The notes under the pieces were generated by a model that worked only from the letters and a program-made list of their open reading frames with translations, made no database searches and was not told where the DNA came from. A program made the position numbers and the translations under genes. From Oscillospiraceae bacterium (GTDB taxonomy: Bacteria > Bacillota > Clostridia > Oscillospirales > Ruminococcaceae), in NCBI GenBank assembly GCA_017545185.1, contig JAFWQJ010000083.1:1-37693 (forward strand): 37,693 nt of DNA, in the 5' to 3' direction. Below, one piece after another: positions 2 through 12,029 of the stretch. Within the stretch, counting starts at the first letter, position 1. Every line of letters begins with the position of its first letter.

Positions 2-940
2 AAGCTGATCGCCGATGTGACCGCTGCCGCCGCTGACCAGAACCCGAAGTTCATCGCGGTCTGCGGCTCCCCGATGCCGATGATGATCGGCGTGGACTTT
101 GACGCCGTCGCGTTTGAGATCGAGCAGCGCACCGGCATCCGCACCTTTGCGCTGCATACGAACGGGATGCATTCCTATCCGGACGGCGCATCCGAAGCAC
201 TCCGCTGCATTGCGGAGGAATATGTCAGACCCGCGGGGACAAAGATCCCGAACGGCGTCAATCTGCTCGGCATGACGCCGCTCGATTTCGGCAATCTGAA
301 CACGGCTGCGAGCATCCGGGAATGGCTCACGGCAAACGGCTTTGAGACGGTCGCCTGCTTTGCAATGGGCGATGCGCTCGAAACGCTCGCAAATGCTGCG
401 AATGCATCGGTCAGTCTAGTGCTGTCGCAGAGCGGGCTTGCCGCGGCGGAATATCTGCACGAAGCCTTCGGGATCCCGTATGTCTGCGGCGTGCCTTACG
501 GAGAGGCGTTTTCCGCGCTGCTTGCGGATACCCTGCGGACGGCTGCGGCAGACGGTACATGTGCATATCCCTGCACGGAGCGCGGGCAGGAAGGAAAGAA
601 CGTCACGGTCATCGGTGAGGCGGTGTCTGCCGGTTCGATTGCGGCGGCGCTCGGCCTGACCGGATACGCGGCAAACGTGATCTGTCCGCTGCCGCATGAC
701 AAAAATCTGCTCGCGGACGGTGATTCCGGTGCCTTTGCGGAGGACGAGATCGCCGCGGCACTGGCGGGAATGCAGCCGGACACGGTCATCGCCGATCCGC
801 TGTACCGGTTTATCCTGCCGGAAAACGCAAAGCATATTCATCTGCCGCATACGGCATTTTCGGGCAGATGCTACGATAAGATCATTCCCGACCTGACGGG
901 CAGCAGCTTTGATGCATGGTATAGGGAGGCATTGTTATGA
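2..940 (+). CDS. Nitrogenase component-1-like oxidoreductase subunit, 5'-truncated by window edge
   Basis: The reading frame is open to the left edge, so the true start lies upstream; the GTG at 17 is only an internal codon. The visible part (about 312 aa) aligns along its whole length with the 350-aa protein at 5573-6625. Shared blocks are a G-[ST]-P-x-P segment, LLGxTPLD / ILGATPLD, a central Rossmann-like repeat and a C-terminal IADxxxR...PH motif. By that alignment about 80 N-terminal residues are missing, probably including the GGC-x4-C cysteine pair seen in the paralogue. This fits the PF00148 superfamily (NifD/NifK/BchN/BchB-like), whose members carry FeS clusters and take electrons from a NifH-type Fe protein. 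The NifH-like gene is two genes downstream. The substrate is unknown. The stop overlaps the next start (ATGA). Family is fairly secure; role in the complex is inferred. Confidence 0.75.
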   Translation, partial: KLIADVTAAAADQNPKFIAVCGSPMPMMIGVDFDAVAFEIEQRTGIRTFALHTNGMHSYPDGASEALRCIAEEYVRPAGTKIPNGVNLLGMTPLDFGNLNTAASIREWLTANGFETVACFAMGDALETLANAANASVSLVLSQSGLAAAEYLHEAFGIPYVCGVPYGEAFSALLADTLRTAAADGTCAYPCTERGQEGKNVTVIGEAVSAGSIAAALGLTGYAANVICPLPHDKNLLADGDSGAFAEDEIAAALAGMQPDTVIADPLYRFILPENAKHIHLPHTAFSGRCYDKIIPDLTGSSFDAWYREALL

Positions 941-1329
941 AGCACGGAAAGCATATCCTGATCGCGTACATCTTTCATCTGGTCCCGATCATCCTCGGAT
1001 TTACGGCGGGCAGAGACCGGTTTCATTTCATGGGGTTCTGCGCGATCGCCGGCACGATCGCTTATATCATCTACTGGTGCATAGCAAACCGGAAGCAGTT
1101 TCTCTCGTGGGCGGTATTCGTGCATTTTCTGATCGGTGCCGCCGTGCAGATCATTCTGAATGCGGCGGAGATCATTGAGCCTGACAGCGGTATGTTTTCG
1201 GGGCTCGGACAGTATTTTTATATGATCTATGTTGCGGTCTCCGCTGTGCTGGTCGGCCTCACGAATCTGATTTTGTGGCTGATCGACAGACGCCGCAAAA
1301 CGAAACAGGCAGCACAGCCGGAAGAATAA
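937..1329 (+). CDS. Small integral membrane protein, unknown
   Basis: A 130-aa protein with four hydrophobic segments (about residues 7-22, 32-48, 56-75 and 93-115) and a basic C-terminal tail (DRRRKTKQ), predicting a four-helix inner-membrane protein. No enzymatic motif is visible. Its ATG overlaps the stop of the upstream component-1-like gene, and the NifH-like gene starts 10 bp downstream, so it is transcribed and probably translationally coupled with the nitrogenase-like genes. I do not recognise a family. Its position suggests a membrane partner of the complex, but it could simply be an unrelated passenger like the GNAT and VOC genes nearby. Confidence 0.7.
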
Positions 1330-1339
1330 GAGGAACGAT

Positions 1340-2101
1340 ATGATAAAGCTGGCAATTTACGGCAAGGGCGGCATCGGCAAATCGACCTGCACCGCGAACC
1401 TCGCGGCGGCATTTGCGATGCGCGGCAAAAAGGTCATCCAGATCGGCTGCGACCCGAAGGCCGATTCCACGATCAATCTGCTGAACGGGGAGCCGGTCAC
1501 GCCGGTCATGGACTGGATGCGCGACCACGACGACGAGCCGGACAGCCTCGACCAGATCGCGAAGGAGGGCTTCGGCGGGGTGCTCTGCATTGAGACCGGC
1601 GGCCCGACACCGGGGCTCGGCTGCGCGGGGCGCGGCATCATCACGACATTTTCGCTGCTCAAGGAGCTGCGCCTGTTCGAGACATATCAGCCGGACGTCG
1701 TGCTATACGATGTGCTCGGCGACGTCGTCTGCGGCGGGTTTGCCGCACCGATCCGGGAGGGCTACGCGGAGCAGGTGCTGATCGTCACATCCGGCGAAAA
1801 AATGGCGCTCTACGCCGCGAACAATATCAACAATGCGGTGAAGAATTTTGAGGACAGAAGCTATGCGAAGGTACGCGGGCTGATCCTCAACCGCCGCAAT
1901 GTCACGGACGAGGAAGCGAAGGTGCGCGCCTTTGCAGAAACAGCAGGGCTTTCGATCGCGGCGGATATCCCAAGATCGGACGATATCACAAAGTACGAGG
2001 ATACGGGCAAAACGGTCATTGAGGGCGACCCTGCCTGCGAGACCGCAAAGCGATTCTTTGCGCTGGCCGATCTGCTGATCGGTGAGGATGCGGGAATATG
2101 A
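1340..2101 (+). CDS. NifH-like ATP-dependent Fe protein (nitrogenase-like reductase)
   Basis: A 253-aa protein of the NifH/BchL/CfbC family. Visible hallmarks are the P-loop GKGGIGKST at residues 8-16, GCDPKADST at 36-44, the FeS ligand Cys95 in PGLGCAGRG (with Arg98 in the position of the ADP-ribosylated arginine of NifH), and the second ligand Cys131 in switch II ([10 protein letters not shown]). Each monomer of the homodimer would give two cysteines to a shared [4Fe-4S] cluster and couple ATP hydrolysis to electron transfer to a component-1-type protein. It is shorter than true NifH (about 290 aa), and no nifD/K with canonical MoFe ligands or nifB/E/N accompanies it, so nitrogen fixation is unlikely. 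Its partners are probably the component-1-like proteins at 2, 3833 and 5573. The stop overlaps the next ATG. Confidence 0.9.
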
Positions 2102-2580
2102 GCAGCGGGCAGCCGGGCGGCATCACGGTCATGCGCGCCGCGGAGGAATGGCAGCGCGCCGGTGCCTATTCCGTGCGCATTCAGGGCATGAACCGGCAGC
2201 ATCATATTTCACTGCGCGAGGAATTTGACGGGCACGACGGCGAAGGCACAAAATACATCGTCCTGCTCGATGACGGCTATCCGTTTGCGACATGCCGGTT
2301 TTATCCGCTGGACGGAAACCGCGTGATGCTCGGGCGGGTCGTCGTGCTGCCGGAATACCGCGGAAAGCAGTACGGCGTGAAAACCGTCGCAGAAGCGGAG
2401 AAATGGATGCGGGAGCTCGGCTATCAGACCGCAGAGATCGAGAGCCGCACCGAAGCGGTCGGGTTCTACGAGAAGCTCGGCTACCGCAAAACCGGCGGCG
2501 GGATCGTCCGGAGCGGCGTGTTTGACTGCATCCGCATGACAAAGCCGCTCACCGGAACGGAGCAGTCAGATGAAAATTGA
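2098..2580 (+). CDS. GNAT-family N-acetyltransferase
   Basis: A 160-aa GNAT enzyme. The acetyl-CoA-binding motif A is [17 protein letters not shown] (about residues 80-96), followed by a typical motif B ending in [12 protein letters not shown] (about 122-135). Layout and length match small single-domain GNATs. It would transfer an acetyl group from acetyl-CoA to an amine; the acceptor cannot be predicted. The start ATG overlaps the stop of the NifH-like gene, and the 3' end overlaps the next gene by 11 bp, so it belongs to the same transcription unit. A role in the nitrogenase-like pathway is unproven. Confidence 0.85.
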
Positions 2581-2953
2581 GCATATTGCGATGTATGTGC
2601 GCGACCCGGAACGTGCGCGGGACTTTTTCACGGAATATTTCGGCGGCACGGCAAATGACGGGTATCATAACCCGAAAACCGGGTTCCGCTCGTACTTCAT
2701 CCGCTTTGCGGACGGCGCACGGCTGGAGCTGATGAACAGGCCGCAGCTGTCAGACGGGATGCAGGACGGCAATCGCTTCGGCTATGCACATATTGCATTC
2801 AGCGCCGGGAGCAGAGACGCCGTTGACCGGCTGACCGAACGGCTCCGCGCTGCCGGGTACGAGGTCATCAGCGGCCCGCGCACGACCGGCGACGGCCATT
2901 ACGAAAGCTGCATTGCGGCGATTGAGGGCAATCTGATCGAGATTACGGAATAG
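2570..2953 (+). CDS. VOC-family (glyoxalase/bleomycin-resistance-like) protein
   Basis: A 127-aa single-unit vicinal-oxygen-chelate protein. The four positions that usually bind the metal are present: His5 (EHIAM), Glu in RLELMN, His in YAHIAF and Glu in LIEITE near the C-terminus. Such proteins act as dimers on small molecules as lyases, isomerases, dioxygenases or drug-binding proteins; the substrate is not predictable. The gene starts inside the end of the GNAT gene (11-bp overlap), and a second VOC gene follows 13 bp later. The two VOC proteins resemble each other only in the fold pattern, so they are probably not a recent duplication. Confidence 0.85.
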   Translation: MKIEHIAMYVRDPERARDFFTEYFGGTANDGYHNPKTGFRSYFIRFADGARLELMNRPQLSDGMQDGNRFGYAHIAFSAGSRDAVDRLTERLRAAGYEVISGPRTTGDGHYESCIAAIEGNLIEITE

Positions 2954-2966
2954 GGAGAATATTGCG

Positions 2967-3344
2967 ATGATCAAGGGCATTCACCATATCTCCATGAAAT
3001 GCGGTACGCAGGAGGCGTTCAGCAAAGCAAAATCGTTTTATCTGGATGTGCTCGGCATGACGGCCGTCCGGGAATGGGCTGACGGCATCATGCTCTCCGC
3101 CGGGAACTGCATGATCGAGATTTTCTGTAACGGCGCGGGCATCACCGAAAAGGGCGCGATCCGGCATTTTGCGCTGCTGACTGACGATATCGACGCACTT
3201 GCAGAAAAAATCACACAGGCCGGATACCGCTTTTTCATTGCACCGGATGACCGCGTGATTCAATCCGACCCGCCGTACCCGATCCGGATCGCATTCTGCA
3301 CCGGGCCGCTCGGCGAGGAGATCGAGCTCTTTCAGGAACGGTAA
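2967..3344 (+). CDS. VOC-family (glyoxalase-like) protein, second copy
   Basis: A 125-aa VOC protein. Metal-ligand candidates are His6/His7 in GIHHISM, Glu in MIEIFC, His in IRHFALLTDD and Glu in EEIELFQE near the C-terminus. It starts 13 bp after the first VOC gene, with a purine-rich ribosome-binding site (AGGGAGA) upstream. The pattern GLG-M/Y...FYLDVLGM is typical of glyoxalase I-like and lactoylglutathione-lyase-like proteins. The substrate is unknown. It is co-transcribed with the nitrogenase-like genes. Whether it works with the preceding VOC protein is inference. Confidence 0.85.
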   Translation: MIKGIHHISMKCGTQEAFSKAKSFYLDVLGMTAVREWADGIMLSAGNCMIEIFCNGAGITEKGAIRHFALLTDDIDALAEKITQAGYRFFIAPDDRVIQSDPPYPIRIAFCTGPLGEEIELFQER

Positions 3345-3359
3345 GCAAAAGGAGCAAAA

Positions 3360-3836
3360 ATGTTCAGTACAGATTCACATGAGATCGAATTTTTATATCT
3401 GTTCGGCGGCAGACGCCTGCTGATCATCGTCGGCATCGTGCTGTACCTGATCGCGGGTGCCGCGCTGCTGATGTTCATTCCGCAGACGTATGACTGGGTG
3501 CGCGCGGAGGCAAGATACACCGTGCAGGCCGATATCGTTTCCTCGAAGGTGGATTATTTCGGGAGCAGCCGCAAGAAAGAGGACAAGCGGTACGAGGTCA
3601 CCATGGAATATGAGATCAACGGCATCCGCCGGACGCATACGGAAATCTGCTCGCATGAGCCGACCGGCAAGCAGAAGCTGCGTGTTTACTGCACGCGGGA
3701 CGGCCGCTGGGAGGTTCTGGAGTATAATATTCCTGCAATGATATTGCTGACCGCGATCGCAGTCTGTGCCGCGATCTACGGGACGACTGTGCTGCGCGCG
3801 GCGAAGGAGCGGAAAAATACAGGAGAATCTGCATGA
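3360..3836 (+). CDS. DUF3592-like two-helix membrane protein
   Basis: A 158-aa protein with an N-terminal membrane helix (about residues 18-40), an extracytoplasmic beta-rich domain (about 45-120, with EVTMEYEINGIRRTHTE and RVYCTRDGRWEVLEYN segments) and a second helix (about 125-147). This two-helix arrangement around a small beta domain is typical of DUF3592 proteins, whose function is unknown. The ribosome-binding site AAAAGGAGC precedes the ATG. The stop overlaps the start of the next component-1-like gene (ATGA). Confidence 0.7.
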   Translation: MFSTDSHEIEFLYLFGGRRLLIIVGIVLYLIAGAALLMFIPQTYDWVRAEARYTVQADIVSSKVDYFGSSRKKEDKRYEVTMEYEINGIRRTHTEICSHEPTGKQKLRVYCTRDGRWEVLEYNIPAMILLTAIAVCAAIYGTTVLRAAKERKNTGESA

Positions 3837-5122
3837 ATCACAACGCATACAGCATCACCGCGGCGGAGCTTGCCGCGGGAGGCTTTGATAATCTGCCGCC
3901 GGAGCTGAACAGTGCGAAGCACCTGATCTACAGCTCGCCGGCGACGCTCGACTACAATTCACCGGGCGCAAAGGGCTTCGGCGTCAAACGCGCGGGGCTC
4001 GCGATCCCGGGCTCCGTGATGCTGCTGGTCGCGCCGGGCTGCTGCGGCCGCAATACCGCGCTGCTCAACGAGCTCGGCTACAGCGAGCGGTTTTTCTACC
4101 TGCTGCTCGACGACACCGACATCGTCACGGGACGCTATCTCAAGAAAATTCCGCAGGCCTGCGCGGAGCTGCTCGGCGAATGCAAAACGCCGCCGTCCGC
4201 GGTCGTGATCTGCATTACCTGCGTCGATGCGCTGCTCGGCACCGATATGGAGCGCGTCTGCCGAGCCTGCACGGAGCAGACCGATGTCCCGACGATCCCG
4301 GCGTATATGTACGCACTGACGCGCGAAAAGCGTCTGCCGCCGATGGCACTGGTGCGCAGATCGGTCTACTCGCTGCTCGAAAAGCAGAAGCGTGTTTCTA
4401 CAGCCTGTAATCTGCTCGGCTATTTCTCAGCGCTGGAGGACGGCTGTGAGATCTATCGGCTGCTGCGGTCGGCGGGCATCAAAACGATCGGTGAGATCGG
4501 CCGATGTCAGACATTCGACGAATATACGCGGCTTTCGCAGGCAAATTTCAACCTTGTGCTCAATGCGGAGGCAAGATACGCGGCGCAGGATATGCAGGAG
4601 CGGCTCGGCATTCCGTATATCGAGCTGACGCGGTTATACCGGCTGGATAAAATTCGCAACCAGTACCGGCTGCTCGGGCAGGCGCTCGGCGTGACGTTTG
4701 ACGATGCGGACGATTATCAGGAGGCGCTGGAAACCGTCGAGCGGTTCCGTGACAAATACGGCGCGCTGAAAATCGCGGTCGGCGAATGCCTGAACGCGGA
4801 CAGCTTCGAGCTCGCGCTCGCGCTGACGGAATACGGATTCACGGTGACGGAGATCTACGGGACGGTCGGCGAGCGCAATTTTGTCTTTCTCAAAAAGCTG
4901 GCGGAGCTCTCGCCGAAAACACGTATCTACTCGAATTTATCGCCGTCGATGCTCAATTATCGGTGCGATGACGAGCCCGATGCGGTCATCGGCAACGACG
5001 CGATGTACTATCACAAAAACGTGCCGGGCGTCGGCTTTCAGGACGAGGCGCAGCCGTTCGGCTACCGCGGCGTGACGCTCCTGTTTGCGCAGCTCGATGC
5101 GGCAATGCAGGGGGCGGGCTGA
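3833..5122 (+). CDS. Nitrogenase component-1-like oxidoreductase, larger (NifD-like) subunit
   Basis: A 429-aa PF00148-type protein. Two cysteine sites sit where NifD-family proteins bind their P-cluster or [4Fe-4S] cluster: VAPGCCGRN (Cys70/Cys71) and ICITCVDALLGTD (Cys130), the latter closely resembling the C-P-x-G-L-I-G-D-D block of NifD. Three Rossmann-like lobes follow, ending with DAVIGNDAMYYHK and PFGYRGVTLL. The usual His and Cys that hold the FeMo cofactor in NifD cannot be assigned, so this is a nitrogenase-like rather than nitrogenase enzyme. It probably pairs with the smaller component-1-like proteins at 2 and 5573 and is reduced by the NifH-like protein. The start overlaps the DUF3592 gene, and a 150-aa ORF follows after 1 bp. 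Confidence 0.8.
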   Translation: MNHNAYSITAAELAAGGFDNLPPELNSAKHLIYSSPATLDYNSPGAKGFGVKRAGLAIPGSVMLLVAPGCCGRNTALLNELGYSERFFYLLLDDTDIVTGRYLKKIPQACAELLGECKTPPSAVVICITCVDALLGTDMERVCRACTEQTDVPTIPAYMYALTREKRLPPMALVRRSVYSLLEKQKRVSTACNLLGYFSALEDGCEIYRLLRSAGIKTIGEIGRCQTFDEYTRLSQANFNLVLNAEARYAAQDMQERLGIPYIELTRLYRLDKIRNQYRLLGQALGVTFDDADDYQEALETVERFRDKYGALKIAVGECLNADSFELALALTEYGFTVTEIYGTVGERNFVFLKKLAELSPKTRIYSNLSPSMLNYRCDDEPDAVIGNDAMYYHKNVPGVGFQDEAQPFGYRGVTLLFAQLDAAMQGAG

Positions 5123-5123
5123 C

Positions 5124-5576
5124 ATGGCGGACTGGAAGGCGAAGGAGTATTATACCGTGCAGCTTGACGGGATCCCGGTGGAGCGCCTCGCAGGATTCCT
5201 GCGCGGAACGCTTGGGCTCAGCGAGGAAACGGCGGTCAGATCGCAATTTTATACCAAAGAAGCGGGCGATCTTGCGTATTCGGATTCGTTCGATCTTGCG
5301 GCGTATTTTGCCGGCCGCGGCAGCGCATCCGTGCACATGAAAACCGTCTGCTTTGACCGCGCATACCGCGACGGCACCTGTGTGATCTGTTCGGACGGAA
5401 CGGCTGCGGAACTGGAATGTGACATCGAGGAAAAGGATTTTGATACGCAGCGGGTTCCGGCGCTGGAAGCATGGCTGACGGAGCAGATACGGGAGGGAAT
5501 AGCTGAATATGCGAGCATCAACTACACTTTCGATAATGCGCCGCTGTTTGAGATCAGGAAAGGAGACTTGTCATGA
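5124..5576 (+). CDS. Conserved-looking 150-aa protein of unknown function
   Basis: I chose the ATG at 5124, one base after the upstream stop, because an upstream start would overlap the preceding gene by 38 bp. The 150-aa product begins MADWKAKEYYTVQLDGIP. It is soluble and mixed alpha/beta, with no transmembrane helix or signal peptide. It has three cysteines (in VCFD, TCVIC and LECD), two of them close together in GTCVICSDG, which could be a metal or redox site but match no family I know. It lies between the NifD-like gene and a NifK-like gene, with an ATGA overlap into the latter, so a small subunit or assembly factor of the complex is plausible but unproven. Confidence 0.7.
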   Translation: MADWKAKEYYTVQLDGIPVERLAGFLRGTLGLSEETAVRSQFYTKEAGDLAYSDSFDLAAYFAGRGSASVHMKTVCFDRAYRDGTCVICSDGTAAELECDIEEKDFDTQRVPALEAWLTEQIREGIAEYASINYTFDNAPLFEIRKGDLS

Positions 5577-6625
5577 GCAGTCTGCTGACGCATCTTTCGC
5601 CGCTCGCGCCGGACGATTCCGGTGCCTGTGCGGTGCTCTACGAGCTGGGCGGCATCACGGTCATCTGCGACGCCGGCGGCTGCGCGGGCAATGTCTGCGG
5701 CTTTGACGAACCGCGCTGGCTCGAGAAAAAATCCGCGCTGTTCAGTGCCGGGCTCCGCGATATGGACGCGATCCTCGGGCGCGACAAGCTGCTGATCGAC
5801 AAGCTCTGTCAGATCACGGAGCAGGTCCCCGCCGATTTTACGGCGATCGTCGGAACGCCCGTACCTGCGGTGATCGCGACCGATTTTCACGCGCTGCAGC
5901 GTATGGCCGAAAAGCGCACGGGACTGCCGTGCATCGTCATCCCGACGGATGGCACAAAGCATTATGATGTCGGCGCGGAACAGGCTTATCTTGCTGTATT
6001 TGAGCGCTTCGCAACAGAGCAATATCCGATCAAAAAGAACAAGGTCGGCATTCTCGGCGCGACGCCGCTCGATACCGGCTGTACCCATGCGAAGGATATC
6101 GTGCACGGGATGAATTATGACGAAATTGTCTGCTTCGGTCTGGACAGCGGGCTCGATGAGATCCGGCGGGCATCGGAGTGTTCCGTGATCCATGTGATCG
6201 CGCCGTCCGGCCTGAAAACCGCGAAGCTGCTGAAAGAACGCTTCGGAACACCCTATGTGATCCTGCCGCGGATACCGAATGAGATCCTGTCAGTCTGCCG
6301 CAAAACGGACATCAGTGACAAGCGCATTCTAATCGTGCATCAGCAATATGCTGCAAATCATCTGCGCGAGCTGCTGTACCCGCAGGAGGACTATCTCCCG
6401 CAGGCAGCGCAGATCGACTGCGCAACATGGTTCAAATTTGATAAGAGATGCGCGAATGAACACGATTTCCGGATCAAAGCAGAGCAAGATCTGCGCAATG
6501 CAGCGCAAGATTATGATATTATCATTGCCGACGGGATGTTCCGTCGGGCGGTGCCAGAGTTCAACGGCGAATGGATCAACTGGCCGCATTATGCGGTCTC
6601 AGGCTCGGAAGGAGCGGTGTTATGA
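5573..6625 (+). CDS. Nitrogenase component-1-like oxidoreductase, smaller (NifK-like) subunit
   Basis: A complete 350-aa paralogue of the truncated first gene of the window. N-terminal cysteines lie in DAGGCAGNVCGF (Cys37 and Cys42), a candidate half of an inter-subunit FeS cluster. The position that holds a cysteine in NifK (…TSC-x-E) reads IVGTPVPAVIATD, without cysteine. Conserved later blocks are GILGATPLD, the IVCFGLDSG repeat and IIADGMFRR...WPHYAVSG. Being shorter than NifK (about 450-520 aa), it belongs to the compact nitrogenase-like branch. An RBS (AAAGGAG) precedes the start, which overlaps the previous stop, and the stop overlaps the next gene. Partner assignment is inferred from clustering with the NifH-like and NifD-like genes. 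Confidence 0.8.
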   Translation: MSSLLTHLSPLAPDDSGACAVLYELGGITVICDAGGCAGNVCGFDEPRWLEKKSALFSAGLRDMDAILGRDKLLIDKLCQITEQVPADFTAIVGTPVPAVIATDFHALQRMAEKRTGLPCIVIPTDGTKHYDVGAEQAYLAVFERFATEQYPIKKNKVGILGATPLDTGCTHAKDIVHGMNYDEIVCFGLDSGLDEIRRASECSVIHVIAPSGLKTAKLLKERFGTPYVILPRIPNEILSVCRKTDISDKRILIVHQQYAANHLRELLYPQEDYLPQAAQIDCATWFKFDKRCANEHDFRIKAEQDLRNAAQDYDIIIADGMFRRAVPEFNGEWINWPHYAVSGSEGAVL

Positions 6626-7056
6626 TACGGGAAGCAATGCGCGGCGACCTCGAAGGTCTGCTGCTGTTATACACGCATTTACATGAAAAATCGGTTCCTG
6701 CGGATACACCGGAGCGGGCTGTGCTCTGGGACAAAATCCTCAGCGACCCGGACTATCACATCATCGTCGCGGAGGAGGACGGCCTGATCGTGTCGTCCTG
6801 TGTCTGCGTGATCGTGCCGAACCTGACGCACGGGCTGCGGCCGTATGCGCTGATTGAGAACGTCGTGACGCATGCGGAATACAGAAAGCGCGGGCTGGCG
6901 AGTGCCTGTCTTGATTTTGCGCGGGAGCTTGCGAGAAAGCAAGATTGCTACAAAATCATGCTGATGACCGGCTCGAAGGAGGAGAGCACGCTGCGGTTTT
7001 ACGAGCGTGCCGGCTACAGCCGCGGCGACAAAACCGCATTCAATCAATGGCTGTGA
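6622..7056 (+). CDS. GNAT-family N-acetyltransferase
   Basis: A 144-aa GNAT enzyme. The start at 6622 makes an ATGA overlap with the upstream stop and follows GGAGCGG; an earlier in-frame ATG at 6571 would lie inside the previous gene. Motif A reads NVVTHAEYRKRGLASACL (about residues 76-93), and the C-terminal part has the GSKEESTLRFYERAGY segment common to ribosomal-protein-type and amino-acid GNATs. The substrate is unknown. It sits between the nitrogenase-like genes and hypF, so the operon carries two unrelated GNATs. Confidence 0.85.
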   Translation: MIREAMRGDLEGLLLLYTHLHEKSVPADTPERAVLWDKILSDPDYHIIVAEEDGLIVSSCVCVIVPNLTHGLRPYALIENVVTHAEYRKRGLASACLDFARELARKQDCYKIMLMTGSKEESTLRFYERAGYSRGDKTAFNQWL

Positions 7057-7078
7057 CAGGCAGACAAGGAGGTGCGCA

Positions 7079-9394
7079 GTGACAGTCAGATATCAGATCT
7101 GCGGCATTGTGCAGGGGGTCGGGTTTCGTCCGTTTACTGCTGTAACAGCTGAGAAATTCGGCGTAACCGGTACCGTATCGAACAAGGGCTCCTATGTCGA
7201 GATCGTTGCGCAGGGAATGCCGGAAGCACTGCGGGATTTCGCGGAGGCGATCCGTCATACGCCGCCTGACCGTGCCGTGATTCTCAGCATGGAGGAGACG
7301 GAAATCCCGGATACAGAAGTAAAGCAATATCGTACATTTTCAATCATCGAAAGTGAAAAGGAATACGGTGATATTTTCGTGTCACCGGATATCGCAATAT
7401 GCGACAAATGCAAAGCAGAACTGTTCGATCCGAAGAACCGCAGATATCTGCATCCGTTCATTAACTGTACGCAGTGCGGCCCGCGGCTGACGATTCTCGA
7501 TACGATGCCGTATGACAGAGAACGCACGAGTATGCGCGATTTTCCGATGTGTCCGGAATGCGCGGCGGAGTATCATGATCCAGCGACAAGGCGCTACGAT
7601 GCGCAGCCGAATTGCTGTAATCAATGCGGCCCGGAGCTGTACATCGTGAGCAAGAAAATCCATGGCGGTGACGCAGTCACGGCTGTTCGCAGGACGATCA
7701 TGGCGGGGGGGATCGCGGCAGTCAAGGGCATCGGCGGTTTTCACCTCTGCTGCGACGCGAAAAATCCGGAGGCAGTCCGTCGGCTGCGGGAACGCAAACA
7801 TCGGCCGATGAAGCCTTTTGCAATTATGTTGCGCGACATACAGACTGCCGAACGTGAATGTATCCTTGCGGAAGGTCAGCGTGAGATGCTCACCGGCTGG
7901 CAAAAGCCGATCCTGCTTTTGGAAAAACGCGAAAATATGTCAATTTGCGATGAGATCGCGCCGGACAACAGAACGGTTGGCGTTATGCTGCCGTATGCAC
8001 CTGTGCAGCAGCTGCTGTTTGATTATCCGGACGATATTGCGATGACGGATTGTCTTGTCATGACCAGCGGCAATGCGCACGGCGCACCGATTTGTCGGGA
8101 TGATGACGATGCGGTCAAAGAAATCGGCGGATTTTGCGATATAATCCTCTCGCATAATCGGAATATCTTGCTAAGAGCAGACGACTCTGTCTGTGACTGG
8201 CTTGACGGAAAGCCATATATGATCCGTCGTTCCCGCGGCTTCGCACCGCTCCCGGTCGCAATTCCGATTCGGGAGCACAAGCAAGTGCTTGCAATCGGCG
8301 GTGAGTTGAAAAATACTTTTTGTATAGCGAAGGGCGGGCTGCTCTATGCGTCGCCGTTTGTCGGAGACATGGCAGATATTCGCACAGTGCAGGCACTCCG
8401 AGAGTCCGTTAAACGAATGTGCGGTTTGCTGGAAACCGAACCTGAGGTCATTGTCTGCGATAAGCATCCGCTGTACAATACCGTCACCGTCGCAAAGGAA
8501 ATTGCGAAGGAGCTGGGAATTCCAATGCTGCAGGTTCAGCATCATTATGCGCATATTCTGTCGTGCATGGCCGAAAACGGATGTACGGATCGTGTCATCG
8601 GCATCAGCATGGACGGAACCGGGTACGGCGATGACGGCACGATCTGGGGCGGCGAATTGCTGCTTTGTGATCCGCATAGATATATACGCGCAGGATATAT
8701 TGAACCGTTTGTCCAGACCGGCGGCGATCTCTCAGCGAAAGAGGGATGGCGCATCGCCGCGGCTCTGCTGCGGGATGCTGACCCTGAAAATGCCGCTGAC
8801 ATTTGTGAGGATCTTGACATTTGTACTGCGCAGGAATACAAAGTCCTGAGCAATATGGCACGAATGGGCATCAACAGTGTGCGATCGACCAGCTGCGGAA
8901 GGCTTTTTGATGCGATTGCAGCAATTCTTGGGCTGCGGCGCAGTGTGACCTTCGAGGGAGAAGCCGCTGCTGCACTCATGTGCGAGGCGGAGCAATATGC
9001 ATCGAAATGCGAGGATATGATGTGTCGGCTCCATACTGGGATTATTGAAAAAGACGGTGCTCTGATACCGGCCACAACTGCACTTGCTGCAGAAATCACG
9101 GTGAGCTACATGGCCGATCGCTGTCCCGAAAATCGCGCGTATCTGGCATACCAATTCCATGCTGCATTATCATCAATGATTCTGGACGTATGCATTAAAA
9201 TCCGCGAAAGAACAGGCATATCAACATGTGCATTGAGCGGCGGCGTTTTTCAGAATCGTCTGATGACAATGCTCTGTGAGCGCAAACTGAAAGCAGCCGG
9301 CTTCCACGTGCTGCGCCACAGTCTTATCCCGCCGAATGACGGGGGCATTTGCATCGGCCAGGCAATGTACGGTGTTGTCCATGCCGGTTATTGA
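7079..9394 (+). CDS. hypF: HypF carbamoyltransferase, [NiFe]-hydrogenase maturation
   Basis: HypF uses carbamoyl phosphate and ATP to carbamoylate the C-terminal cysteine of HypE, the source of the cyanide ligands of the [NiFe] active site. I chose the GTG at 7079 (771 aa) because AAGGAGG lies 6 bp upstream and the protein then begins with the acylphosphatase domain. Domains in order: acylphosphatase (about 1-90, with GIVQGVGFRPF), two C-x2-C...C-x2-C zinc fingers (about 107-183: CDKC/CTQC and CPEC/CNQC), a YrdC-like domain (about 200-385, with KGIGGFHL) and a Kae1-like domain (about 390-771, with QHHYAH, MDGTGYGDDG and SGGVFQNR). All hallmarks are intact. The first hyp gene of a F-C-D-x-E set, it follows the nitrogenase-like genes 22 bp downstream of a GNAT gene. 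Confidence 0.97.
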   Translation: MTVRYQICGIVQGVGFRPFTAVTAEKFGVTGTVSNKGSYVEIVAQGMPEALRDFAEAIRHTPPDRAVILSMEETEIPDTEVKQYRTFSIIESEKEYGDIFVSPDIAICDKCKAELFDPKNRRYLHPFINCTQCGPRLTILDTMPYDRERTSMRDFPMCPECAAEYHDPATRRYDAQPNCCNQCGPELYIVSKKIHGGDAVTAVRRTIMAGGIAAVKGIGGFHLCCDAKNPEAVRRLRERKHRPMKPFAIMLRDIQTAERECILAEGQREMLTGWQKPILLLEKRENMSICDEIAPDNRTVGVMLPYAPVQQLLFDYPDDIAMTDCLVMTSGNAHGAPICRDDDDAVKEIGGFCDIILSHNRNILLRADDSVCDWLDGKPYMIRRSRGFAPLPVAIPIREHKQVLAIGGELKNTFCIAKGGLLYASPFVGDMADIRTVQALRESVKRMCGLLETEPEVIVCDKHPLYNTVTVAKEIAKELGIPMLQVQHHYAHILSCMAENGCTDRVIGISMDGTGYGDDGTIWGGELLLCDPHRYIRAGYIEPFVQTGGDLSAKEGWRIAAALLRDADPENAADICEDLDICTAQEYKVLSNMARMGINSVRSTSCGRLFDAIAAILGLRRSVTFEGEAAAALMCEAEQYASKCEDMMCRLHTGIIEKDGALIPATTALAAEITVSYMADRCPENRAYLAYQFHAALSSMILDVCIKIRERTGISTCALSGGVFQNRLMTMLCERKLKAAGFHVLRHSLIPPNDGGICIGQAMYGVVHAGY

Positions 9395-9491
9395 TCGTTA
9401 ATCCACAATATAAGCGTATATGCTTTCTGCATAATTACATGCAAAACATACGGTTTCTAACCGCAATATCATATAAAAGGAGAAGATTCAA

Positions 9492-9701
9492 ATGTGTGTT
9501 GGATTATCTGCAAAAGTGGTCAGAGTTGAGGGCGGTACCGCACTGATCGACGCATCAGGTGCGCAGAGAGCCGTCAGCGCGGGCGTTCTTGACGACCTCG
9601 AACCCGGCGATTTTGTTATGGTCCACGCCGGCGTCGCAATCGCAAAAATAACCCAAAACGATGCCGAGGAAGCCGACGAAATCATGGAGGGGCTGCTGTG
9701 A
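9492..9701 (+). CDS. hypC: HypC/HupF-family hydrogenase maturation chaperone
   Basis: A 69-aa HypC. The essential N-terminal Met-Cys is present (MCVGLSAKV; Cys2), followed by the small beta-barrel with ALIDASGAQRAVS and the conserved GDFVMVHAGVAIAKI. HypC carries the Fe(CN)2CO group, forming a complex with HypD and then delivering it to the hydrogenase large subunit. An AAAGGAG site precedes the ATG. The stop overlaps the GTG start of hypD. The roughly 97-bp gap to hypF is the largest in the operon and could carry an internal promoter, but I see no strong -35/-10 pair. Confidence 0.97.
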   Translation: MCVGLSAKVVRVEGGTALIDASGAQRAVSAGVLDDLEPGDFVMVHAGVAIAKITQNDAEEADEIMEGLL

Positions 9702-10741
9702 ACGAGAGCATGGCGCGTGCGCGGGACATCATCACCTCGTACAGCGGGCGGCCGCTGCGCATCATGGAAGTCTGCGGCACGCATACGCATGAAATTTTCC
9801 GCATCGGGCTGCGCAAGCTGCTGCCTGAACAGATCGACCTGATCTCCGGACCGGGCTGTCCGGTCTGCGTGACGGCGGTCGGATTTATCGACGAGGCGAT
9901 CTGGCTTGCCCTCGAAAAACGATGTATCATCTGCACTTTCGGCGATCTGATCCGCGTCCCCGGAACCGAAATGAGCCTCGCCGGAGCGCGTGCAAAGGGC
10001 GGCGATATCCGGCCGGTTTACTCCCCTCTGGACGCGGTCGAGCTGGCGAAGGCGAATCCTGACCGGCAGGTCGTGTTCCTTGCTGTCGGGTTTGAGACGA
10101 CGACGCCCTCGGCCTGTCTGGCCGCAAAGCAGGCGCGTGACGCCGGGCTCACGAATTTTTCGCTGCTGACTGCGAACAAAACGATGCCGAATGCTTATCA
10201 GGCGCTGGTCGGCTCAGCTGACGCATTCCTCTATCCGGGGCATGTCAACGCGATTACCGGTAACGCAACATGCTACAAATTATGTGAGGAGCAGGGCGTC
10301 TCCGGTGTCGTGGCCGGTTTTACCGCGAGCGAGCTGCTCACCGCTCTGGCCGTTACAATTAAGTTGCTCGAAAAGGGCGAACCGTTTTTCCGCAACTGCT
10401 ATCCGCGCGTTGTGAAGGATGAGGGCAATCCTGCCGCAATTGCGCTGATGAACGAGGTTATGGAGCCCTGCGACAGTGAATGGCGCGGGCTTGGTATGAT
10501 CCCTGGTTCTGGTATGAAGTTGCGGTCTGAATTTGCAGCGTATGATGCGCGTATCAAACATAATATGCCGGTTATTACGGGCAGGCCGAATCCTGCCTGC
10601 CGCTGCGGCGATGTGCTGCAGGGCAAGATCAGACCATGTGACTGCAAGGTGTTCGGCAAGGTCTGCACCCCGCTGCATCCGGTCGGCGCGTGCATGGTGT
10701 CCGATGAGGGCGCGTGTGCCGCGTACTATCAGTATTCCTGA
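9698..10741 (+). CDS. hypD: HypD, Fe-S scaffold for Fe(CN)2CO assembly
   Basis: A 347-aa HypD of normal length. HypD holds a [4Fe-4S] cluster and, with HypC, is the scaffold on which the Fe(CN)2CO group is built using cyanide from HypE. Family signatures are VCGTHTHEIF (about residues 25-34), GPGCPVCVT (about 54-62), AVGFETTTPS (about 129-138) and the C-terminal cysteine-rich region (CRCGDVLQG, CDCKVFG, LHPVGACMVS). The start is a GTG overlapping the hypC stop, with GGAGGGG just upstream, so it is translationally coupled to hypC. Confidence 0.97.
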   Translation: MNESMARARDIITSYSGRPLRIMEVCGTHTHEIFRIGLRKLLPEQIDLISGPGCPVCVTAVGFIDEAIWLALEKRCIICTFGDLIRVPGTEMSLAGARAKGGDIRPVYSPLDAVELAKANPDRQVVFLAVGFETTTPSACLAAKQARDAGLTNFSLLTANKTMPNAYQALVGSADAFLYPGHVNAITGNATCYKLCEEQGVSGVVAGFTASELLTALAVTIKLLEKGEPFFRNCYPRVVKDEGNPAAIALMNEVMEPCDSEWRGLGMIPGSGMKLRSEFAAYDARIKHNMPVITGRPNPACRCGDVLQGKIRPCDCKVFGKVCTPLHPVGACMVSDEGACAAYYQYS

Positions 10742-10751
10742 GGTGATTTTT

Positions 10752-10922
10752 ATGGAACCGCATGACTACATCGTCACGGATAGTCAGGGCGATTATGCTT
10801 ATCTTGCGCAGACTGATTCGGACGCTTCCGAGCCGTTTCAGGTTGCGATGGCTCTGCTGCCGCCGGAGACCGATCTCGGGACTAAGCTCCGTGGTTTTAT
10901 GGGCATGTTTGAGATCATCTGA
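10752..10922 (+). CDS. 56-aa protein between hypD and hypE, unknown
   Basis: An ATG at 10752 lies 10 bp after the hypD stop, preceded by GAGGTG. The 56-aa acidic product begins MEPHDYIVTDSQGDYAYL and ends GTKLRGFMGMFEII. The stretch GDYAYL...ALLPPETDLGTKL loosely recalls small DUF3006-type beta domains, but that is only a pattern impression. The gene keeps the hypD-hypE spacing tight and has no stop codons in the chosen frame, which together support it as a real gene. It could be a small partner of the HypCDE machinery. Confidence 0.6.
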   Translation: MEPHDYIVTDSQGDYAYLAQTDSDASEPFQVAMALLPPETDLGTKLRGFMGMFEII

Positions 10923-10965
10923 TAGAAAATGTATAACAAGATAATTTGAAAAGGAGTTCATGATC

Positions 10966-11973
10966 ATGAGTGAACGGACTGTCACGCTTGCGCACGGCGC
11001 GGGCGGTACACAGACAAACGAGCTGATTGACAGCGTATTCAAGGCGCATTTTGCAAACCCGATGTTTACCGGCGATGACGCCGCGGTACTTCCGCAGCCG
11101 CAGGGCATGATTGCAACATCGACTGACGGATTCATCGTATCTCCGTGGAAATTCAACGGCGGCAACATCGGCAAGCTGTCGATCTGCGGCACGGTCAACG
11201 ACCTCTCCTGTATGGGCGCAAAACCGCTCTATCTGACCTGCGCGTTTGTTATTGAGGAAGGCTTCTCCATGGACGCGCTCGAGGAAATTGCAGCAGCTAT
11301 GGAGAAAACAGCCGCCGAAGTCGGCGTGCGCATTGTCGCGGGCGATACGAAGGTCGCCGGAAAAGGCCAGTGCGACGGCGTATTCATCACGACGACCGGC
11401 ATCGGCGAGATCATGCCGCAGGCGCATACCTCCGGAACGCTCGCCAAACCCGGAGACGCGGTCATTGTCAGCGGAGACGTCGGGCGGCACGGTTGTACGA
11501 TCTTGCTTGCACGTGATGACTTCGGTATCGAATCTGATGTGGACAGCGACTGCGCGCCGCTTTGGGGAACGGTCGAAAGCCTTTATCAGGTCACCGATCA
11601 GATTCATGTGATCCGTGATGCGACCCGCGGCGGCGTCGGCACGGTTTTGTACGAAATTGCGGGACAGAGCAGCGTCGGCATCCGTCTGGACGCAGCCAGC
11701 GTTCCGGTTGATCCGCGCGTCAAAGGCGTCTGCGGGATGCTCGGTCTGGAACCGCTGTACCTCGCCTGTGAAGGCCGCCTCGTGATCTTCGCGCCGCAGG
11801 AGCACGCAGCCGCGATCGTCGAACAGCTCCGCCGCGGCAAATATTCGCAGAACGCCGCGGTCATCGGCACGGTCACGGCCGAGAACCCCGGCAAGGTCAT
11901 CATGGAGACCGAGATCGGCACGCAGACCGTTCTTCCCCAGCCGAAGGGCGAGCTGCTGCCGCGCATCTGCTGA
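10966..11973 (+). CDS. hypE: HypE, thiocarbamate dehydratase making the cyanide ligand
   Basis: A 335-aa HypE of the PurM/ThiL/SelD fold. It dehydrates the carbamoyl group placed on its C-terminal cysteine by HypF and passes cyanide to HypCD. The glycine-rich N-terminus (AHGAGGTQTNELI), FTGDDAAVL, the ATP-binding VNDLSCMGAKP and GDTKVAGKG segments, and the diagnostic C-terminus PRIC-stop are all present. I prefer the ATG at 10966 (9 bp after AAGGAG) over the ATG at 10960 (3 bp after). A rho-independent terminator follows at 12001. No hypA or hypB is visible, so nickel insertion genes must be elsewhere. Confidence 0.97.
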   Translation: MSERTVTLAHGAGGTQTNELIDSVFKAHFANPMFTGDDAAVLPQPQGMIATSTDGFIVSPWKFNGGNIGKLSICGTVNDLSCMGAKPLYLTCAFVIEEGFSMDALEEIAAAMEKTAAEVGVRIVAGDTKVAGKGQCDGVFITTTGIGEIMPQAHTSGTLAKPGDAVIVSGDVGRHGCTILLARDDFGIESDVDSDCAPLWGTVESLYQVTDQIHVIRDATRGGVGTVLYEIAGQSSVGIRLDAASVPVDPRVKGVCGMLGLEPLYLACEGRLVIFAPQEHAAAIVEQLRRGKYSQNAAVIGTVTAENPGKVIMETEIGTQTVLPQPKGELLPRIC

Positions 11974-12000
11974 GAAAGCACGCGTTTACGAAGAAAATAA

Positions 12001-12029
12001 GGCGTCGGCTTTGTGCCGGCGTCTTTTTT
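12001..12029 (+). terminator. Rho-independent terminator after hypE
   Basis: A 9-bp stem (GGCGTCGGC / GCCGGCGTC, two G-U pairs in RNA) with a 5-nt TTTGT loop, followed by six T residues. It lies 28 bp after the hypE stop and ends the operon that begins left of the window. Confidence 0.9.

Follow-up and report, generated by a model that had tools for sequence, protein, structure and literature searches.

The 37,693-nucleotide window analysed here, i.e. the entire contig C85 of an Oscillospiraceae bacterium genome (GCA_017545185.1; 3.6 Mb, 94 contigs, 95 % complete), begins with a run of genes for nitrogenase-like proteins and for the maturation proteins HypF, HypC, HypD and HypE. We propose, with a probability of around 0.7, that these genes constitute an alternative assembly line for the iron cofactor of [FeFe]-hydrogenase which replaces HydG, i.e. 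that they would supply the iron-CO/CN precursor normally made by HydG, a reading built on comparative sequence analysis. HydG itself is a tyrosine lyase making the Fe(CO)2(CN) synthon. When joined with a second contig, the operon has the order TM1266, H1-D1-K1, H2-D2-K2, hypF-C-D-E, with lineage-specific GNAT and glyoxalase-fold genes interspersed; H1, D1, K1, H2, D2 and K2 are names coined in this analysis for the Fe proteins (H) and the alpha-like (D) and beta-like (K) component-1 subunits of the two nitrogenase-like sets. In related loci, H1-D1-K1 are accompanied either by H2-D2-K2 or hyp genes (Hyp-type) or by a FecBCD-type importer (importer-type).

Evidence for the replacement of HydG is given by the distribution of D1 and HydG among the 199 genomes compared. 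D1 (E≤1e-25) was present in 32 of them, source genome included, and none of these 32 contained a HydG over the model cut-off (control genomes 1/14); in the source genome no HydG match was found at E≤1e-20. Among the 111 genomes with HydF, 29 had D1 without HydG, 74 had HydG without D1, eight had neither and none had both (p 9e-20, a value that ignores kinship; the lists of D1, HydG and HydF genomes were transcribed by hand for the comparison). Within the genus of the window, HydG without D1 is seen in six genomes. On a HydF tree of 77 hand-chosen rows (55 from the 199 genomes and 22 from named genomes; method 'quick'), a minimum of 18 changes is needed for D1 and of 20 for HydG. Of 10 independent pairs on supported branches, on average 8.5 show HydG going in the direction opposite to D1 and 1.5 show no difference in HydG, while none shows both going the same way (sign test with a median p of 0.004, range 0.002–0.031). 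When named genomes were scanned with the D1 alignment, 499 matches were confirmed, and the best 80 of these are referred to below as the named loci. All 50 of the genomes searched behind these 80 had HydF over the cut-off, while HydG exceeded its cut-off in six, bearing in mind that two of the 50 (G216 and G223) correspond to the relatives G194 and G059 by contig and HydF coordinates.

HydE, the next enzyme of the pathway, shows hardly any loss of conserved residues. When 63 HydE sequences from D1 loci were compared with 22 from HydG genomes, one marginal column only held a residue that was kept by at least 85 % of the latter and rare (<15 %) in the former. The comparison excluded the six named loci with HydG and was limited to losses, in D1 loci, of positions conserved where HydG is present. 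The possibility that D1 genomes have a specialised HydE was considered, and this comparison yielded nothing for it beyond that column. The retention of these residues suggests an unchanged substrate for HydE, and places the replaced step probably before this enzyme.

Genome content and gene neighbourhood also connect the system with [FeFe]-hydrogenase. The source genome encodes one [FeFe]-hydrogenase (C69), HydE (C11) and HydF (C50), all on other contigs, and the hydrogenase has all three H-cluster motifs (TSCSPGW, MPCTAKKFE and EIMACPGGCVNGG). Within the 32 D1 genomes, HydE and HydF each exceeded the cut-off in 29, and the [FeFe]-hydrogenase domain PF02906 was present in 31. The TM1266-type gene matches PF21699, 'iron-only hydrogenase system regulator'. 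At least one of HydE, HydF and TM1266 lies in the locus in 19/22 Hyp-type and 7/7 importer-type loci of relatives, and in 11/17 Hyp-type and 44/54 importer-type named loci. TM1266 precedes H1 in Hyp-type loci and HydE adjoins H1 in several of them, while many importer-type loci hold H1-D1-K1 between HydE and HydF. In G094 and G100 the whole series is continuous, i.e. TM1266-HydF-HydE-H1-D1-K1-H2-D2-K2-HypF-C-D-E, with an internal glyoxalase-fold gene in G100. These systems resemble the canonical HydEFG system in the presence of HydE, HydF and the hydrogenase and in a locus that often lies beside HydE, HydF and the TM1266-type regulator, but differ from it in that nitrogenase-like enzymes stand in the place of HydG.

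As a separate observation on the same set of 199 genomes, 84 of the 190 with PF02906, some of them near-complete, lack a HydF over the cut-off; G033, for example, is near-complete and without such a HydF, and its hydrogenase keeps the H-cluster motifs.

The features of the operon in the window are as follows.

2–940, + strand: K1, component-1 beta-like subunit of set 1, C-terminal part (PF00148, 5e-25); its start lies on contig C12 (L009:3-356, minus strand), and a full-length homologue is found in L041
937–1329, + strand: small membrane protein, probably accessory; among the D2 neighbourhoods compared, matches are confined to the window, L041 and L050, and no Pfam family exceeds the cut-off
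1340–2101, + strand: H2, nitrogenase-like Fe protein of set 2 (Fer4_NifH, PF00142, 1.7e-87; nifH model 301 bits against a cut-off of 394), with P-loop GKGGIGKS and two cluster cysteine motifs
2098–2580, + strand: GNAT acetyltransferase (Pfam), a lineage-specific insertion labelled in few relatives' loci
2570–2953, + strand: glyoxalase-fold protein, lineage-specific (Pfam; relatives' loci)
2967–3344, + strand: second glyoxalase-fold protein, lineage-specific (Pfam; relatives' loci)
3360–3836, + strand: protein of unknown function, lineage-specific (DUF2500 under the cut-off)
3833–5122, + strand: D2, component-1 alpha-like (NifE-like) subunit of set 2 (PF00148, 2e-27), paralogue of D1
5124–5576, + strand: protein of about 150 amino acids without a family in profile searches, with homologues in some relatives of the genus
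5573–6625, + strand: K2, component-1 beta-like subunit of set 2 (PF00148, 1.6e-17), paralogue of K1
6571–7056, + strand: GNAT acetyltransferase (profile search), start uncertain, present in part of the relatives' loci
7070–9394, + strand: hypF, carbamoyltransferase, start approximate (TIGR00143, 761 bits; both zinc fingers and VQHHYAH)
9492–9701, + strand: hypC (PF01455; MCVG start with Cys2)
9698–10741, + strand: hypD (TIGR00075, 406 bits), from a HypD group that is limited to these loci in the compared set (tree)
10752–10922, + strand: possible small protein of 56 amino acids between hypD and hypE, of a family that recurs in 12/26 clustered loci
10960–11973, + strand: hypE (TIGR02124, 411 bits) with C-terminal PRIC
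11999–12025, + strand: intrinsic terminator-like hairpin directly after hypE (11 pairs, T tail)

The initial annotation, made from the window alone, had described one Fe protein and three component-1-type proteins in a single tight run with hypF, hypC, hypD and hypE. Profile matches (Fer4_NifH at 1340–2101; Oxidored_nitro at 2–940, 3833–5122 and 5573–6625) and intergenic gaps of -55 to +97 bases confirm this arrangement, with the exception of the hypD-hypE gap of 218 bases, in which the possible small gene lies. The count holds inside the window and has to be extended for the whole operon. Its left end is cut by the contig edge, and the reversed contig C12, which shares 141 identical bases with the start of C85, supplies the beginning of K1 as well as genes for another alpha-like subunit (D1), another Fe protein (H1) and the TM1266-like protein, bringing the total to two Fe proteins and four component-1 subunits. 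The close relative G021 has the identical gene set on a single contig (L041). Weaker terminator-like hairpins occur on the + strand at 6890 (6 pairs, within the GNAT gene) and at 9370 (6 pairs, at the extreme end of hypF), the latter preceding the 97-base hypF-hypC gap; the scan gave 23 terminator-like sites versus 11.4 in shuffles. No promoter-like match was found on the + strand in the K2-hypF interval. Elsewhere in the genome, the Fe protein gene is matched weakly, at the DNA level, by contig C52.

According to the initial annotation, a linkage of the nitrogenase-like genes to hyp genes that is kept across distant genomes would support a functional link. That the linkage is peculiar to this genome is contradicted by its recurrence in relatives and named genomes, including other genera and Lentisphaerota. 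D2 (at least 70 % identity) is present in 23 of the 199 genomes, again counting the source genome, and the 22 other D2 neighbourhoods (7 to 20 kb) contain matches to H1 in 20, D1 in 20, K1 in 21, H2, D2 and K2 in 22 each, HypF in 17, HypC in 20, HypD in 20 and HypE in 18. Missing matches in L047, L049, L053 and L057 coincide with contig ends, and hypE was not found in the fetched stretches of L058 and L059. Gene order varies, with hypE located between D1 and K1 (L048, L051) or beside K1 (L049), and hypCD between K1 and H2 (L058). Carriers of Hyp-type loci include Clostridium ljungdahlii, C. ragsdalei, C. muellerianum, C. thailandense, C. luticellarii and C. drakei, as well as a Megamonas metagenome-assembled genome (MAG), in which an H1 match is missing, and Lentisphaeria. 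C. autoethanogenum is not among the loci. A fragment with K2-hypF-hypC-hypD is found in G022, which is outside the 32 D1 genomes.

Regarding the nitrogenase-like proteins themselves, D1 and D2 as well as K1 and K2 are paralogue pairs (hhalign E 2e-43 and 2e-69, respectively), and H1 and H2 carry the P-loop and two cluster cysteine motifs in the loci inspected, except H1 of L162, which is cut by a contig end. The closest solved structures to the component-1 subunits are NifE chains (best E 2e-18 to 3e-7; one of the searches of the Protein Data Bank used alignment A3, which contained the mis-framed row L152). All proteins score below the cut-off of every NCBIfam nitrogenase-superfamily model that they matched. 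The highest score to a nitrogenase component-1 or NifE/N model was 65 bits against cut-offs of at least 486, and nitrogen fixation was rejected as a function since the scores are far under the Nif cut-offs. For the tetrapyrrole-reducing families, scores were 295 bits for CfbC (cut-off 402), 208 for BchL (345), 188 for BchX (331), 46 for BchB (490) and 17 for methan_mark_13 (268). The sets share with NifEN/NifDK the two adjacent paralogous alpha-beta pairs plus Fe proteins, but lie far below the nif equivalog cut-offs, have two Fe proteins and probably have [FeFe]-hydrogenase as client. With DPOR, COR, CfbCD and methylthio-alkane reductase they share the architecture of an Fe protein and component 1, whereas the matched cut-offs for DPOR, COR (BchX) and CfbC/CfbD are not reached and the gene context differs.

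Two further observations concern these subunits. D1 (L009:370-1752, minus strand; alignment A4) has a C-terminal KGxGCxxC tail that hardly varies; its cysteines could bind or carry a metal fragment and recall the cysteine tail of HypE. In Megamonas sp. UBA1796 (L152), D2 and K2 appear as one long open frame at about 2.7–5.2 kb, a possible fusion that would support the pairing of D2 with K2.

In the maturation of [NiFe]-hydrogenase, HypF and HypE provide the cyanide group and HypC-HypD assemble the Fe(CN)2(CO) unit. HypF, HypD and HypE of the operon pass the cut-offs of TIGR00143, TIGR00075 and TIGR02124, and the catalytic residues inspected in the four Hyp proteins are intact (HypF motifs were viewed in three loci, those of HypD in four); HypE ends in PRIC in 35/35 and HypC has Cys2 in 36/37, the remaining one being probably a start-site artefact. 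While the proteins are alike in this respect, the [NiFe] client is missing: no [NiFe] large subunit (PF00374) was found in the source genome at E≤1 or in any of the 23 D2 genomes at E≤0.001, of which 22 have HypD, the lone miss (G020) having a broken contig. In contrast, 12 of the 13 further genomes with HypD and without D2 (the fragmentary G012 and G022 aside) contain PF00374. The HypD proteins of Hyp-type loci (37 rows) also form a group of their own, which a branch (96/95) separates from 12 other HypDs found in the order; 11 of these 12 come from genomes with a PF00374 match; the nearest to the locus group is HypD of G169, on whose contig there are no nitrogenase-like genes. Given the absence of PF00374, service of the Hyp genes to a [NiFe] enzyme in the window's genus was rejected. 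The initial annotation had noted that no hydrogenase subunit was visible, which stands genome-wide for [NiFe]-hydrogenase, but not for [FeFe]-hydrogenase in view of the enzyme on C69. Its interpretation is partly supported: the hyp link that it recognized is kept across distant genomes, and Hyp chemistry probably serves something other than [NiFe]-hydrogenase, but it missed the tie to [FeFe]-hydrogenase through TM1266, HydE and HydF, the absence of HydG and the importer module.

If the operon indeed replaces HydG, the pathway might proceed as follows. HypF and HypE would make cyanide and HypC-HypD would build Fe(CN)2(CO), as in [NiFe] maturation, for which the window's genus has no [NiFe] large subunit as a destination. 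H2-D2-K2 would then process or release Fe(CN)2(CO), driven by its own Fe protein and ATP, followed by a low-potential reductive step at H1-D1-K1, yielding the iron-CO/CN synthon that HydE normally gets from HydG. For the conversion into a species with two CO and one CN, reductive exchange or the reduction of CO2 to CO is conceivable. HydE, HydF and the hydrogenase would work as usual thereafter. Importer-type genomes would take up a ready-made precursor rather than synthesise it.

A different division of labour would assign to the nitrogenase-like sets the synthesis or repair of some other component of the H-cluster, e.g. the dithiomethylamine bridge, or the role of a redox partner of HydE, with HydG being lost as CO and CN come from free diatomics or a divergent HydG. 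In this direction, the loci are linked to HydE and HydF generally, and Di Leonardo et al. (2022; PMC9431212), in the passages relevant here, recall about 1 % activation by HydE and HydF alone, propose an unknown ligand incorporation and name an atypical HydG candidate. On the other hand, the gene exchanged is HydG, while HydE and HydF stay, and HypFCDE in the operon is a known maker of CN/CO ligands with its residues kept, which makes this explanation unlikely.

The two kinds of accompanying module seem to exclude each other. In the 80 named loci, the FecBCD-type importer was found in 54, H2-D2-K2 or hyp genes in 17, neither in 9 (several of them on short contigs) and both in 0; in the 32 relatives' loci, the respective numbers were 7, 22, 3 and 0. 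Four loci are common to both sets (L115, L130, L170 and L180 repeat relatives' loci), and the ranking of matches by likeness to an importer-type D1 favoured importer types among the named loci. The importer comprises a binding protein, a FecCD permease and an ATPase, its label needing at least one of the first two, and module labels follow phmmer thresholds set by the analyst. The module was switched at least three times on the D1 tree (FastTree, with long-branch warnings; the truncated loci L065 and L072 were labelled Hyp-type by hand).

Neither HydG over the cut-off nor HypD was found in any of the seven genomes of importer-type relatives, which are therefore left with no known dedicated source of cyanide and CO ligands. 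It is tempting to speculate, although only tentatively, that importer-type genomes take up a preformed iron-cyanide-carbonyl 'vitamin', produced and leaked by neighbouring organisms, that H1-D1-K1 converts to the H-cluster precursor; in Hyp-type genomes, the source of this compound would be HypFCDE and H2-D2-K2. Work on synthetic cofactors (PMC6984386) reports that a diiron cofactor given to living Escherichia coli or Synechocystis with apo-enzyme matures the hydrogenase, and outside uptake is therefore chemically possible. A lactobacillus, Loigolactobacillus rennini DSM 20253 (L162, L215), has H1-D1-K1, an importer binding protein, HydF and a FecBCD-type permease, and no HydG match was found in it at E≤1e-20. 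The Intestinibacter bartlettii group (L132, L140, L186) has an importer-type set with HydG present and no Hyd gene nearby, and this branch may have another role.

Alternatively, H1-D1-K1 and the importer could handle a chelate such as a tetrapyrrole, corrinoid or siderophore, the hydrogenase tie being indirect through iron supply. CfbCD and DPOR act on tetrapyrroles, and importers of the FecBCD/BtuFCD type, to which the Pfam matches point, carry iron chelates and corrinoids; D1 has no cysteine facing the cofactor-position cysteine of NifE (in a single D1-NifE alignment, at the level of sequence), and I. bartlettii combines the importer set with HydG and unlinked Hyd genes. However, the importer is exchanged for HypFCDE and H2-D2-K2 and never accompanies them in either set of loci, and iron supply fails to explain the loss of HydG in many lineages, so that we regard this as quite improbable. 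That HypFCDE serve a [NiFe]-hydrogenase encoded elsewhere, with the nitrogenase-like neighbours being an accident of a metal-cofactor island, is very improbable, for although PMC9431212 reports five clostridial acetogens with HypCDEF, in which HypA/B were not found, that encode a group 1a [NiFe] subunit, the PF00374 and HypD counts given above, the separate HypD group and a linkage kept across Bacillota and Lentisphaerota all speak against it.

Several points weigh against the replacement of HydG by this operon. hypF was not found in the fetched stretches of the relatives L048, L051 and L058, and six Hyp-type loci of Clostridium as well as ten importer-type loci are without a neighbouring Hyd gene. 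In eight relatives with HydF, both D1 and an intact HydG are missing, one of them having HydG in pieces. Matches to the HydG model below the cut-off (E≤1e-20; at most 199 bits against 312) occur in 17 of the 32 D1 genomes; judged by the span of the model covered, these are probably ThiH or HydE. HydG coexists with D1 in C. drakei, C. thailandense, two I. bartlettii, Clostridium sp. 1001270J and one MAG, and the exclusion is therefore not absolute, i.e. both can coexist. The exchange of D1 and HydG may also have occurred through swaps of whole clusters. Finally, for the acetogens that lack a canonical HydG, an atypical radical SAM protein of about 450 amino acids has been proposed as a possible HydG in PMC9431212.

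Parts of this picture have been described before. Dos Santos et al. (2012; PMC3464626) report two linked NifHEN-like copies in Coprococcus catus and Dorea longicatena; they note that such genes are associated, in C. catus and further Firmicutes, with 'hydrogenase maturation proteins' and may have a part in the assembly of metalloclusters. ABC transporters adjoining other nitrogenase-like genes are noted separately. The present genes probably belong to this family, by likeness of gene order (two linked copies beside hydrogenase maturation genes), the match being one of description and not of sequence, whereas the loss of HydG, the identity of the maturation proteins and the importer alternative are not named in the main text of that work. 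A profiling paper of 2011 (PMC3226654) lists HydF in 200 genomes, of which 189 have HydE and 179 HydG. According to the passages of PMC9431212, C. ljungdahlii is among the acetogens without canonical hydG, and HypC-F without HypA/B occur in five acetogens, including C. ljungdahlii and C. ragsdalei, the two lists overlapping in C. ljungdahlii, C. ragsdalei, C. coskatii and strain AWRP. No match to TIGR03955 (HydG) was found in C. ljungdahlii or C. ragsdalei at E≤1e-20, in a search that did not address the atypical candidate. The text passages of a transposon paper on C. autoethanogenum (PMC9004356) contain nothing on hydrogenase maturation or hyp genes, and no paper joining the nitrogenase-like genes, the Hyp/Hyd linkage and the loss of HydG was found in a search with subscription papers and most preprints outside its coverage. 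A role in the assembly of hydrogenase metalloclusters was thus suggested, in one sentence, in 2012, while the replacement of HydG, the exchange of modules and the mechanism are new here.

If the replacement of HydG holds true, it would add a new task to the nitrogenase superfamily, namely the building of an organometallic cofactor, and would join the maturation pathways of [NiFe]- and [FeFe]-hydrogenases, which have been treated as separate. It would also account for the absence of hydG in gas-fermenting clostridia such as C. ljungdahlii, which was reported in 2022; this species and its kin can be grown in culture, so that the proposal is open to direct testing. Were the proposed import of a preformed precursor also true, an iron-carbonyl-cyanide compound would be a shared nutrient of gut anaerobes.

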